DNA of 35,835 nt from Elusimicrobiota bacterium. Its GTDB lineage: Bacteria; Elusimicrobiota; Elusimicrobia; UBA1565; UBA9628. Position numbers and translations under genes: made by a program. Within the stretch, counting starts at the first letter, position 1, and the number at the start of each line of letters is the position of its first letter. The notes beneath the pieces are model-generated. The model did not search any database and had not been told where the DNA came from. It worked only from the letters and a program-made list of their open reading frames with translations. The stretch spans positions 1-35,835 of the forward strand of contig JAUYSH010000075.1 of NCBI GenBank assembly GCA_030696455.1, written 5' to 3'. Below, piece by piece: positions 14,672 through 20,410 of the stretch.

Positions 14672-14926
14672 TCAGGCTTTCTTGCCGCACTTGCGCGGGT
14701 ACACGCAGGTGGTGAACTGCGCGACCTCGACGACCGGCGCGGTCTGGGTCGCGGGAGCGACCCGGCAGACGTTGGGCCACACGCAAGGCCGGAACTGAGC
14801 GACCGTCACGGGGGCCGGAGCGGTCTTGCAGACGTTGGGCCACACGCAGGGCCGGAACTGGGCCGTCTGGGCCGCCGGAGCGGCGTTGAAGGAGGAGAGC
14901 GAGAGCGTCAGAATCAGGTTGATCAT
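14672..14926 (-). CDS. Exported CVWPN-repeat small protein C
   Basis: This 84-residue protein starts at the ATG at 14926, six bases after a TATACT box, so it is probably leaderless. The short hydrophobic N-terminus is MINLILTLSLSSF. Three units follow: AQFRPCVWPNVC, AQFRPCVWPNVC and AQFTTCVYPRKCG, with Pro/Ala/Val linkers and a KKA tail. Cysteine pairs are 27/33, 48/54 and 74/80. The last unit has Tyr for Trp and Arg for Asn, so the tryptophan is not absolutely required there. The N-terminus lacks the usual positive charges of a signal peptide, so membrane retention or cleavage after the Q-T-A is uncertain. It lies directly downstream of the Crp/Fnr gene on the same strand. Function unknown. 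Confidence 0.75.
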   Translation of the reverse strand: MINLILTLSLSSFNAAPAAQTAQFRPCVWPNVCKTAPAPVTVAQFRPCVWPNVCRVAPATQTAPVVEVAQFTTCVYPRKCGKKA

Positions 14927-14932
14927 GCATAC

Positions 14933-15011
14933 AGTATACCGGCCGCATGATTTATCTCCGATGAGTCCGGACAACCCGCGCGCTTGATGGATATCAATTG
15001 ATCTGGGTCAA
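14933..15011 (-). promoter_or_regulatory. FNR-type promoter region of small-protein gene C
   Basis: On the minus strand TTGACCCAGATCAA (15011-14998) abuts TTGATATCCATCAA (14997-14984), a perfect TTGAT-N4-ATCAA box. TTGTCCGGACTCAT (14974-14961) and TATACT (14938-14933) follow. Centres relative to a start at 14926 are -78.5, -64.5 and -41.5. The region lies just after the stop of the regulator gene. Confidence 0.7.
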
Positions 15012-17243: not shown

Positions 17244-17281
17244 GGCCGGGGCTGAATTATCGAGCCCCGGCCTTGTTTTTT
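17244..17281 (+). terminator. Intrinsic terminator after tRNA-His
   Basis: GGCCGGGGCT and AGCCCCGGCC form a 10-bp perfect stem around a 9-base loop. It is followed by TTGTTTTTT, a textbook Rho-independent terminator. Confidence 0.95.
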
Positions 17282-17318
17282 AGTCGATCGTGGCCGCTGA
17301 TACCCGGCGGTAAATTCG

Positions 17319-17324
17319 TAGAAT
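17319..17324 (+). promoter_or_regulatory. Predicted -10 box of the antiporter gene
   Basis: TAGAAT ends five bases before the ATG at 17330, just downstream of the tRNA terminator. The transcript would start within the first codon, implying leaderless translation. Confidence 0.4.
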
Positions 17325-17329
17325 TCGTC

Positions 17330-19333
17330 ATGCCGCAAGCCCCGCTGCTGCAGGACCTCGCGACCGTCATGATCATCGCCTCGATCATGGTGTTCGCCAT
17401 GCACCGCCTGCGCCAGCCGGCGGTCATCGGCTATCTTCTGGCCGGGCTGGCCATCGGCCCGCACACCCCCCCTTTCGCCTTGGTGCGGGACCTGCAAACC
17501 ATCCGGGCGATCTCGGAGCTTGGCCTGGCCTTCCTGATGTTCGGCATCGGCCTGGAGTTCAGCCTGCCGCGGTTCCGCAAGGCCGGGCCGTCGGCGGGCG
17601 TCTCGGCGCTGATCGTCGTGGCGGGCATGCTGGCCGCCGGCTACGCTCTGGGGCGGGCCTTCGGCTGGAGCGGGACCGACAGCCTTTTCCTGGGCGCCAT
17701 CCTTTCCATCAGCGGCAGCTCCGTGATCGCCAAGGTGTTCATGGACCTGGGCCTGACCCAGCAGCGCTTCGCGGGCGCGGTGTTCGGGCTGATGATCTCC
17801 GACGACGTGGCGGCGATGGTGATGATCTCGCTGGTCTCGGGCCTGGGCGCGGCGAGCGCGGCCGGCGTCAACGCGGCGCTCGCCCCGCTGCTTAAGATCG
17901 GCTTTTTCGTGCTGCTGTTCCTTCTGACCGGCCTGGTCCTCGTGCCGCGGATTCTCCGGGCGGTCTCGCGTTATCAGGACCCGGAGATGGCGGGAATCCT
18001 CACCATCGGATTATGCCTCGGCTCCGCTTATCTGGCCTCCGCCATGGGCTTCTCGGTGGCGCTCGGGGCCTTCCTGATCGGCGCCATCGTCGCGTCCACC
18101 TCCCAGGCGCCCGCGCTCGGCGAGTGGATGCAGCCGGTCCGCAGCATGTTCAGCGCCTTGTTCTTCGTGTCGGCGGGCATGCTCGTCGATCCTCGCCTGC
18201 TGTGGGCTTATCTCGGGCCCGTGGCGGCCATCGCCGCAGCGACGATCGTTTTCCGCACCGCGCTGGGCACGTTCGCCTCCCTGGCGACCGGCCACCGGCT
18301 CGACGACAGCGTCAAGATCGGCGTGAGCATCTCGCAGATCGGGGAGTTCTCCTTCGTCATCGCGGGGCTCGGCGTCTCGCTGGGCCTGGCCAGCGACTTT
18401 CTATACCCGACGGCCGTGATCGTGTCCTCGGCCAGCATGTTCTTCACCCCCTTGCTGATCGCCCGCGGCGACGCCATCGCCGGCCGCCTCGTCTCCGCGT
18501 TTCCGGGCCTGGAGCCGCGCCTCGAGCGGTATCGCACGAGGATGCTCGGGCTCGGCGGCGGGCGGATGGGCGGCGGGGCCATCTTCGGGCGCTACCTGGT
18601 GAGGCTGACCGCCTATACCGCCGTCCTGATCGGCCTGACCTTGGCTTACGACCGCGCGTCCGGGTTCGCTCAGGCGGCCGGGCCGGGCTGGCTGTGGGCG
18701 AGCCGGGCCGCTTTGGCCGCGGCGGCGCTGCCGGTTTCGCTGCTCATCGCCAAGTACCTGAGCCACGTATTCCTTCTGCTCGTCACGCTCGTGCTGGCCC
18801 TGCCGGCGCTGTCCTGGATCTTTCACCGGGTGGATATCCGCTGGTTCTACAACGTCTTCCACAGCCTCGCCTTGGCGGGCCTGGGCGCCGGGGTGATCGC
18901 GATCGTCGTCCCGGAGGCCGCGTCCCCGCGGCGGCTCGCGCTCAGCGCGGCGGCCCTGGCGCTGATCGCGGAACTGCTGGCCTCCCGGCTCTCCCGTGTT
19001 CTCGAGTGGATCGAGGAAAGGCTCGACGAGGCGTTCGGGCGGGCCACCAGCGAGCCGACGCGCTACGCGATCCTGGTGATGGGCGACCGGCGCTCCCTGT
19101 TCTACGATCTGACCGAGCAGATGCTCCTGCCCGAAGGAGCCCCGGGCGTGGGCCGCACGGTCGAGTCCCTGCGCATCCGGGCGGACACGGGGGCGACGAT
19201 CGCGGCGATCTACCGCGACGGCGAGCATCTGACCAACCCGACGCCGGACACCGTGCTCCGCGCCAACGACCTGATCGTGCTCCTGGGCGAGGCGCCGCAG
19301 CGCGAGCGGGCGCGCCGCCTGCTGCTGTCCTGA
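17330..19333 (+). CDS. CPA2-family cation/proton antiporter with TrkA-C domain
   Basis: This 667-residue inner-membrane protein starts at the ATG at 17330 (MPQAPLLQDLA). The first about 390 residues hold a dozen hydrophobic helices of the Na+/H+ exchanger fold, with family motifs GYLLAGLAIGP, LGLAFLMFGIGLEF, ISGSSVIAKVFMDLG, GLMISDDVAAM and GVSISQIGEFSFVIAG. About four more helices occupy residues 420-560. The C-terminus (about 605-667: GVGRTVESLRIRADTGATIAAIYRDG) is a TrkA-C/RCK-C ligand-binding domain without the NAD-binding RCK-N domain typical of KefB/KefC. It probably exchanges K+ or Na+ for protons, gated by a small ligand. The exact ion cannot be told from sequence. Confidence 0.85.
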   Translation: MPQAPLLQDLATVMIIASIMVFAMHRLRQPAVIGYLLAGLAIGPHTPPFALVRDLQTIRAISELGLAFLMFGIGLEFSLPRFRKAGPSAGVSALIVVAGMLAAGYALGRAFGWSGTDSLFLGAILSISGSSVIAKVFMDLGLTQQRFAGAVFGLMISDDVAAMVMISLVSGLGAASAAGVNAALAPLLKIGFFVLLFLLTGLVLVPRILRAVSRYQDPEMAGILTIGLCLGSAYLASAMGFSVALGAFLIGAIVASTSQAPALGEWMQPVRSMFSALFFVSAGMLVDPRLLWAYLGPVAAIAAATIVFRTALGTFASLATGHRLDDSVKIGVSISQIGEFSFVIAGLGVSLGLASDFLYPTAVIVSSASMFFTPLLIARGDAIAGRLVSAFPGLEPRLERYRTRMLGLGGGRMGGGAIFGRYLVRLTAYTAVLIGLTLAYDRASGFAQAAGPGWLWASRAALAAAALPVSLLIAKYLSHVFLLLVTLVLALPALSWIFHRVDIRWFYNVFHSLALAGLGAGVIAIVVPEAASPRRLALSAAALALIAELLASRLSRVLEWIEERLDEAFGRATSEPTRYAILVMGDRRSLFYDLTEQMLLPEGAPGVGRTVESLRIRADTGATIAAIYRDGEHLTNPTPDTVLRANDLIVLLGEAPQRERARRLLLS

Positions 19334-19337
19334 GGCG

Positions 19338-19366
19338 TTGACCGTTGACGCGAGAAGTGGCAAGAT
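19338..19366 (+). promoter_or_regulatory. Predicted lpxD promoter
   Basis: TTGACC (19338-19343) and CAAGAT (19361-19366) are separated by 17 bases. A second TTGAC overlaps at 19345. The expected transcription start, seven bases after the -10 box, is the A of ATC at 19373, where the LpxD reading frame appears to begin. Confidence 0.5.
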
Positions 19367-19372
19367 GGGCGC

Positions 19373-20410
19373 ATCAACTTAAAAGAACTGGGAGCTTTGC
19401 TGGGCGCGGAGATCAAGGGCGACGCCGCCCTGGAGATCGCGGGCCTGCGCGACATCGAGCGGCTGTCCCCCGAGCAGGCGCTCGAGGACGGCGGGCTGTA
19501 CTTCATCGAGTCGAAGGCCGTGCTCAAGCGGCATCCCCTCGCCCCGAATAACGGCGTCATTCTCACCACGCCGGAGCTGGCCCCCTATTTTCCCCGCGCC
19601 GTCGTCGTGCCGGGCGACGCCCGCCTCGCCTTCATCAAGCTGCTCGGCCATCTCGACCGCAAGCCTAAGTTCGCCCCGGGGGTCTCGATGGAGCCTCTCG
19701 TACACCCGGGCGCGAAGATCGACGCGAGCGCCTCGATCCTGCCCGGCGCCGTCGTCATGGACGGCGCCGAGATCGGCGCCCGCGCCGTGATCTGGCCGGG
19801 CGCGGTGATCGAGCCGCGCGCCCGGATCGGAGAGGACACGGTGATCCGCTCCAACGTCGTGATCGGCTACGACTGCGTGATCGGCAAGCGCTGCCTCGTG
19901 CACAGCGCGACGGCGATCGGGGCCGACGGCTTCGGCTTCTACGACCGGCCGGGCGAGCGCCACAAGATCCCCCATATCGGAAACGTCGTCATCGCCGACG
20001 ACGTCGAGATCGGGGCGTCGAACACCATCGACCGCGCCACGATCGAGAGCACGACGATCGGCGTTCACACGAAGACCGACGACCAGGTGCACATCGGCCA
20101 CAACTGCCGCGTCGGCCGCTTCATCTACATCGTCGGCAACACCGCGATCGGCGGCTCCGTCGTGCTCGAGGACGGCGTGATGCTCTCGGGCAACGTGATC
20201 GTCAAGGACCACCTGCGCCTGGCGGCGGGGACCATCGTGATGGGCGCCTCGGCCGTGGCCCAGGACACCGCGCCCAAGGACATCCTCTTCGGCACGCCCG
20301 CGCGCCCGGCCAAGGAGATGCACCGCATCAACGCCTCGCTGGGCAAGCTGCCAGAGCTGGTGGCCAAGGTCCGCGAGCTCGAGGCCAAGCTTCTGGAGAA
20401 GACCTCATGA
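19373..20410 (+). CDS. lpxD: UDP-3-O-acylglucosamine N-acyltransferase
   Basis: LpxD adds the second acyl chain in lipid A synthesis (cytoplasmic, trimeric). The uridine-binding N-terminal domain (LKELGALLGAEIKGD, GGLYFIESKA) leads into a left-handed beta helix of hexapeptide repeats from about residue 105 (VHPGAKIDASASILPGAVV) and the catalytic His in VHIGHNCRVG. The C-terminus is helical. The start is unusual: the family's N-terminal L-K-E-L-A-x-L-L pattern begins at ATC 19373. No ATG or GTG lies in frame between the stop at 19346-19348 and the TTG at 19397. Starting at TTG would cut eight conserved residues. I give the ATC start; the TTG start yields 337 residues. Confidence 0.9.
   Translation: MNLKELGALLGAEIKGDAALEIAGLRDIERLSPEQALEDGGLYFIESKAVLKRHPLAPNNGVILTTPELAPYFPRAVVVPGDARLAFIKLLGHLDRKPKFAPGVSMEPLVHPGAKIDASASILPGAVVMDGAEIGARAVIWPGAVIEPRARIGEDTVIRSNVVIGYDCVIGKRCLVHSATAIGADGFGFYDRPGERHKIPHIGNVVIADDVEIGASNTIDRATIESTTIGVHTKTDDQVHIGHNCRVGRFIYIVGNTAIGGSVVLEDGVMLSGNVIVKDHLRLAAGTIVMGASAVAQDTAPKDILFGTPARPAKEMHRINASLGKLPELVAKVRELEAKLLEKTS

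Follow-up and report, generated by a model that had tools for sequence, protein, structure and literature searches.

The textbook gene with an AUU or AUC start is infC, and to our knowledge conserved near-cognate starts outside infC are very rare. IF3 feedback on, or control of, AUU, ATC and GTC starts is known from E. coli and Streptomyces (PMC5472188); in Streptomyces sigR a conserved non-canonical GTC start doses one protein against its partner, and IF3 repression has been shown there (PMC5472188). When 61,358 ancestral AUG starts were reconstructed, one had switched to AUU and two to CUG with no switch to AUC listed, counts that lean on annotated starts (PMC5622118). Leaderless initiation in E. 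coli has a strong AUG preference, other codons being much weaker, and known leaderless mRNAs use AUG or, in some species, GUG (PMC9031893). As for LpxD itself, the part of PMC10248169 drawn on here describes two LpxD enzymes in Francisella that are expressed at different temperatures and differ in acyl chain, and a pair in Leptospira as well.

The locus analysed here shares with the LpxD1/LpxD2 systems of Leptospira and Francisella the presence of two LpxD genes per genome and differs from them in its probable non-canonical start, which that part of PMC10248169 does not report; we found no literature linking lpxD to a noncanonical start. With infC it shares a putative near-cognate AUH start that is conserved in the lineage and, in relatives, lies behind a Shine–Dalgarno sequence; infC apparently has such a start in the window genome as well. 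The infC product acts in feedback on its own gene, whereas LpxD2 is a lipid A enzyme without a known role in translation. The likeness to sigR (PMC5472188) lies in a conserved non-canonical start on a gene other than infC that would dose one protein against a partner, although the codon and the phylum are different, the partner here would be LpxD1, and the IF3 dependence of lpxD2 is something that we infer. A promoter-like stretch in the window genome would make the start codon 5′-terminal as in leaderless mRNAs, but the candidate codon here is AUC. Our main reading, to which we give a probability of roughly 0.78, is that lpxD2 would start at AUC 19373, a codon that is recruited by a Shine–Dalgarno sequence in relatives and whose use IF3 probably keeps low, and that the window leader was lost in a rearrangement.

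A second lpxD gene and its start region

The window (the whole 35,835-nucleotide stretch that was analysed) comes from a draft Elusimicrobiota genome that totals 4.0 Mb over 147 contigs, and all genomes compared are draft assemblies. Its LpxD matches the TIGR01853 profile over the full length (261.6 bits against a cut-off of 242.5, positions 4–324 of 325); named Elusimicrobiota relatives have 54–64% protein identity, and the nearer LpxD2 relatives include a Leptospirales contig (48%). Because contig C44 of the same genome carries another LpxD (LpxD1, 37% identical, near an LpxA-like acyltransferase match), we regard the window gene as the second lpxD and term it lpxD2 (Table 1). The aligned start of LpxD1 is a canonical ATG. 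The coding sequence of lpxD2 is under purifying selection (dN/dS 0.15–0.17 against G003 and G016), and the QVHIGHN stretch of its product is intact.

The sequence-only reading had placed the opening of the conserved LpxD N-terminus at ATC 19373, and profile matches and the alignment to 3eh0 bear this out. In the NF002060 match (286.6 bits), profile position 4 corresponds to frame residue 9, which is ATC 19373, and residue 2 past this codon pairs with residue 5 of chain 3eh0, the E. coli LpxD (PDB matches), so that the ATC sits where LpxD proteins begin. It had also claimed that no ATG or GTG stands in frame ahead of the TTG at 19397; direct reading of the frame confirmed this, finding no ATG, GTG or TTG between the TGA at 19346–19348 and that TTG, and the codons after the TGA run CGC GAG AAG TGG CAA GAT GGG CGC ATC(19373) AAC TTA AAA GAA CTG GGA GCT TTG(19397). 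The sole nearby ATG, at 19365, is out of frame. No Shine–Dalgarno sequence precedes ATC 19373 in the window genome, where the leader lacks GGAGG.

Table 1. Features of the lpxD2 start region and its surroundings in the window
Feature	Position	Strand	Remark
CPA2/Kef-type cation:proton antiporter gene	17273..19333	+	CPA2 family assignment below curated cut-offs
Promoter-like TTGACC-N17-CAAGAT, TG before second hexamer	19338..19366	+	Unproven; would put transcription start near 19373
In-frame stop TGA, upstream limit on the start	19346..19348	+	Read in the sequence
Out-of-frame ATG...TAA mini-ORF (M-G-A-S-T; TAA 19380–19382), overlaps candidate start	19365..19382	+	One base added after the ATG would bring it in frame
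Candidate start codon ATC (AUC)	19373..19375	+	Relatives' column holds ATG/GTG/TTG (15) or ATC behind GGAGG-N4 (G003, G016, G013, G015)
TTG, first canonical in-frame codon	19397..19399	+	Would cost 8 residues; absent at the column in G003, G016, G015, G013
lpxD2, second LpxD (UDP-3-O-acyl-glucosamine N-acyltransferase)	19373..20410	+	345 codons from ATC; stop TGA 20408–20410

The start codon among relatives

Orthologues of lpxD2 occur in 27 of the 56 genomes of the order, and codon counts are taken from those with a readable N-terminus. The codon aligned with ATC 19373 is ATG in 12 other relatives, GTG in two and TTG in one; G044 and G010 have an ATG one codon upstream of the aligned position. 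ATC is the first possible start in the window genome and in G003, G016, G013 and G015, and in these four congeners a GGAGG lies 4 nt ahead of it, with spacing identical to that of the GGAGG-N4 before ATG in G004 and G042. Since the column holds ATG, GTG or TTG in 15 relatives and an ATC behind a Shine–Dalgarno sequence in four, the placement of ATC 19373 exceeds chance.

We regard G003 as the decisive case for the predicted ATC start: 30 open codons upstream contain no canonical start and extend into a tRNA-His gene, and downstream no canonical codon appears until a GTG 49 codons inside. Upstream in-frame canonical codons do exist in G016 (ATG, 46 codons away) and G015 (GTG, 18 codons away), both upstream of the Shine–Dalgarno sequence. 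In G001, G006 and G007 an ATG stands two codons upstream of the aligned position, and because G001 and G006 retain the ATC as an ordinary Ile codon in its presence, ATC alone is no proof of a start in the window genome. The GGAGG-N4-ATC element is found in another family too, in G035, which carries CGGAGGCGTTATCACGATT, equal at 16 of 19 bases to CGGAGGCACTATCACGATC of G003, and there the N-terminus is 7 codons longer with no canonical codon for 31 codons. A usable canonical start at the conserved N-terminus is thus missing from the window genome, G003, G016, G013, G015 and G035. Alignment of the locus in relatives was among the checks that the sequence-only reading had proposed for its AUC start, and it strongly supports AUC as the probable start of lpxD2 in the clade. 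A sequencing error behind the ATC itself is ruled out for the clade, as the ATC is present in four further genomes.

Two observations concern the surroundings of these starts. The lpxD2 start element CGGAGGCRYTATCACGATY is almost the same in G035 and G003, which belong to different families (L283 of G035, also L027), a likeness that may reflect shared descent, exchange or constraint. In G003 the stretch just ahead of lpxD2 holds the tRNA-His gene (L007:2594–2670, minus strand), so the genes that precede lpxD2 vary among close relatives.

In an LpxD2 tree built without the first residues, the window genome, G003, G016, G013, G015, G006, G001 and G007 form one clade with support of 100/100. ATC forms make up five of its eight members, and the upstream-ATG forms are nested inside, beside G015, so that in the simplest history ATC would have arisen once before the clade and an upstream ATG would have been gained once later. 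A single base substitution would turn the ATC back into ATG, and an upstream ATG was indeed gained in three relatives, which counts against the main reading; because ATC was kept for so long although one base from ATG, its retention suggests selection for a weak start. In this clade, gene callers limited to ATG, GTG and TTG would misplace or truncate the lpxD2 start, by between 8 and 49 codons according to species.

AUC initiation in the lineage and a possible role for IF3

AUC as a general start in the lineage was considered and rejected, as ATC is not enriched after Shine–Dalgarno sequences and orthologue pairs share canonical starts. In 780 kb of G000 and G016, ATC followed a Shine–Dalgarno sequence at 10 of 442 sites, no more commonly than other codons (2.0%); under a strict filter three ATC sites remained, not above background, one of them G016 lpxD2 (1.9 Mb, 1,576 called genes). 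Genome-wide statements are based on the 1.9 Mb of G000 and G016. A DNA-block comparison of these two genomes found a common canonical start column in 93 of 96 real-frame orthologue pairs, and for lpxD2 the first shared canonical column is column 59, deep inside the protein. A search of 48 genomes with the pattern CGGAGG-NNY-TATCA returned 17 CGGAGGNNYTATCA sites, at five of which the ATC opens a conserved full-length gene, lpxD2 in every case; the other long open reading frames at CGGAGGNNYTATCA either have an ATG right after the ATC (e.g. a GAPDH-like gene) or are short or without signs of a gene. By these comparisons the putative ATC start is specific to lpxD2 within the sequence sampled, and lpxD2 is, as far as the alignments go, a gene other than infC with a conserved near-cognate start, a kind of gene already known.

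Two other genes have unusual codons at the family N-terminus. In a NodU-like carbamoyltransferase on contig C7 of the window genome (L206:1987–3678, minus strand) the conserved N-terminus begins at an ATT 4 nt past a GGAGG; GGAGG-N4-ATT recurs in its orthologue in G018 (83%), where a GTG follows two codons later, and more distant orthologues have ATG or GTG. A HisF/WbuZ-like gene on contig C116 of the window genome (L218:6596–7351, plus strand) fits its family profile from a CTG 5 nt past a GGAGG, and a relative in G043 (73%) has ATC at the CTG position and a GTG 7 codons upstream.

The infC gene of the window genome, judged by position, lies at an ATC (CCAGGAGCAACCAGCCTC-ATC-AAT-AAC), while match coordinates place ATT at the infC start of G003, G016 and G013, other genomes having ATA or ATC. 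Because infC lies at an ATC position, the lineage very probably initiates at AUC elsewhere too, under IF3 feedback. In our main reading AUC 19373 would be read by the initiator fMet-tRNA, so that the protein would begin with Met, and AUC would be the inherited start of the lpxD2 clade, recruited in relatives through a strong GGAGG 4 nt away and not by a leaderless mechanism. IF3 would discriminate against this AUC as it does for infC (AUU/AUC) and Streptomyces sigR (GTC). The amount of LpxD2 would then be small, increasing under limiting IF3, and this would set its ratio to the canonical-start LpxD1. Control by IF3, with LpxD2 kept low relative to LpxD1, is wholly what we infer; the weak AUC start probably serves to hold down the enzyme level. 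Such a dose would have a plausible purpose, because Francisella has two LpxD enzymes that differ in expression or acyl chain and Leptospira has a pair as well (PMC10248169). If so, an AUC on an outer-membrane enzyme would offer a second natural test, after sigR, of IF3 discrimination setting the dose of a protein.

More tentatively, a selected AUC might tie lipid A acylation to IF3: when IF3 is limiting, as with a growth change or stress, the LpxD2/LpxD1 ratio would rise and outer-membrane acyl composition would shift, and the window AUC itself may be leaderless. We consider this rather doubtful as a whole.

The window leader and competing starts

The window genome differs from its congeners just where the start lies. 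Against G003, identity is 62% in the first 60 nt of lpxD2 and 91% in the body, and the upstream-ATG type has the nearest 5′ end (77% for G001 over 60 nt). Across the 18 other genomes of the genus nothing matches the antiporter gene ahead of lpxD2 at E ≤ 1e-100, and of 247 other Elusimicrobiota genomes only seven have it, at 42–48%, so it is likely to have been acquired. An old antiporter–lpxD2 gene pair was rejected, since the antiporter is absent from congeners and the two genes are non-adjacent in G040, the one relative in which both were seen here. The whole 5′ region in the window genome has the look of a replaced or diverged stretch beside an antiporter that congeners lack, and in our main reading the Shine–Dalgarno leader would have been lost along with the rearrangement that placed the antiporter upstream. 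Leaders of the window genome, G003, G016 and G015 folded no better than shuffles (z of –0.4, 1.3, 1.3 and 1.1, the G003 stretch ending at the ATC), and no conserved RNA structure was found at the start. In the window genome the message could possibly begin at the A of the ATC; the transcript could also be longer, or the gene could be shifted by one base relative to ATG 19365.

The first of these possibilities was the mechanism favoured by the sequence-only reading, in which a promoter starts the message on the A of ATC 19373 and ribosomes initiate at the 5′-terminal AUC. The hexamers and spacing that it named are present (TTGACC at 19338–19343, N17, CAAGAT at 19361–19366 with a TG just ahead, A19373 being the seventh base after), the window gene is without a Shine–Dalgarno sequence, and CAAGAT resembles a TGGYATAAT-like stretch found upstream of several orthologues. 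CAAGAT matches TATAAT at only 3 of 6 positions, however, and a consensus scan passed no promoter in 19100–19700, so the promoter itself is in doubt. The stretch in several relatives is better than CAAGAT and, in G016 and G015, lies 21 nt before the start and is followed by a Shine–Dalgarno leader. Same-clade orthologues likewise have Shine–Dalgarno leaders; lpxD2 begins 39 nt past the stop of the same-strand antiporter gene, with which it may be cotranscribed; and leaderless initiation in E. coli strongly favours AUG (PMC9031893). Because four congeners pair ATC with an ordinary GGAGG leader, tolerance of AUC is independent of a 5′-terminal codon, which leaves the proposed tie between AUC and a leaderless message unsupported. 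We consider a leaderless AUC unlikely.

Alternatively, the true window start could be ATG 19365, if the GGG run at 19367–19369 is one base short through an assembly error or a loss in the gene itself. This ATG lies 8 nt ahead of the ATC and one base off frame, restoring the base would give M-G-R-I-N-L-K-E-L, and the nearness of the window 5′ end to the upstream-ATG type would fit. The reading needs an error or lesion at exactly that place, though, and leaves G003, G016, G013 and G015, which have no such ATG, unexplained; we think it improbable. That window lpxD2 is a decaying gene whose start was lost when the antiporter arrived would account for the diverged leader and first 60 nt, but is very hard to reconcile with 345 open codons, the low dN/dS and the intact QVHIGHN. 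Least plausible of all is a start at TTG 19397 with incidental conservation upstream: although it is the first canonical codon and has a GGGAG 2 nt ahead, that spacing is too short for a Shine–Dalgarno sequence, the 8 residues lost are protein-conserved in relatives, and canonical codons are absent from the column and its neighbourhood in G003, G016 and G015.

Elsewhere in the window, a small open reading frame (14672–14974, minus strand) has a secretion-like N-terminus and repeated AQFRPCVWPNVC motifs, and alike short sequences near it suggest a tandem family.
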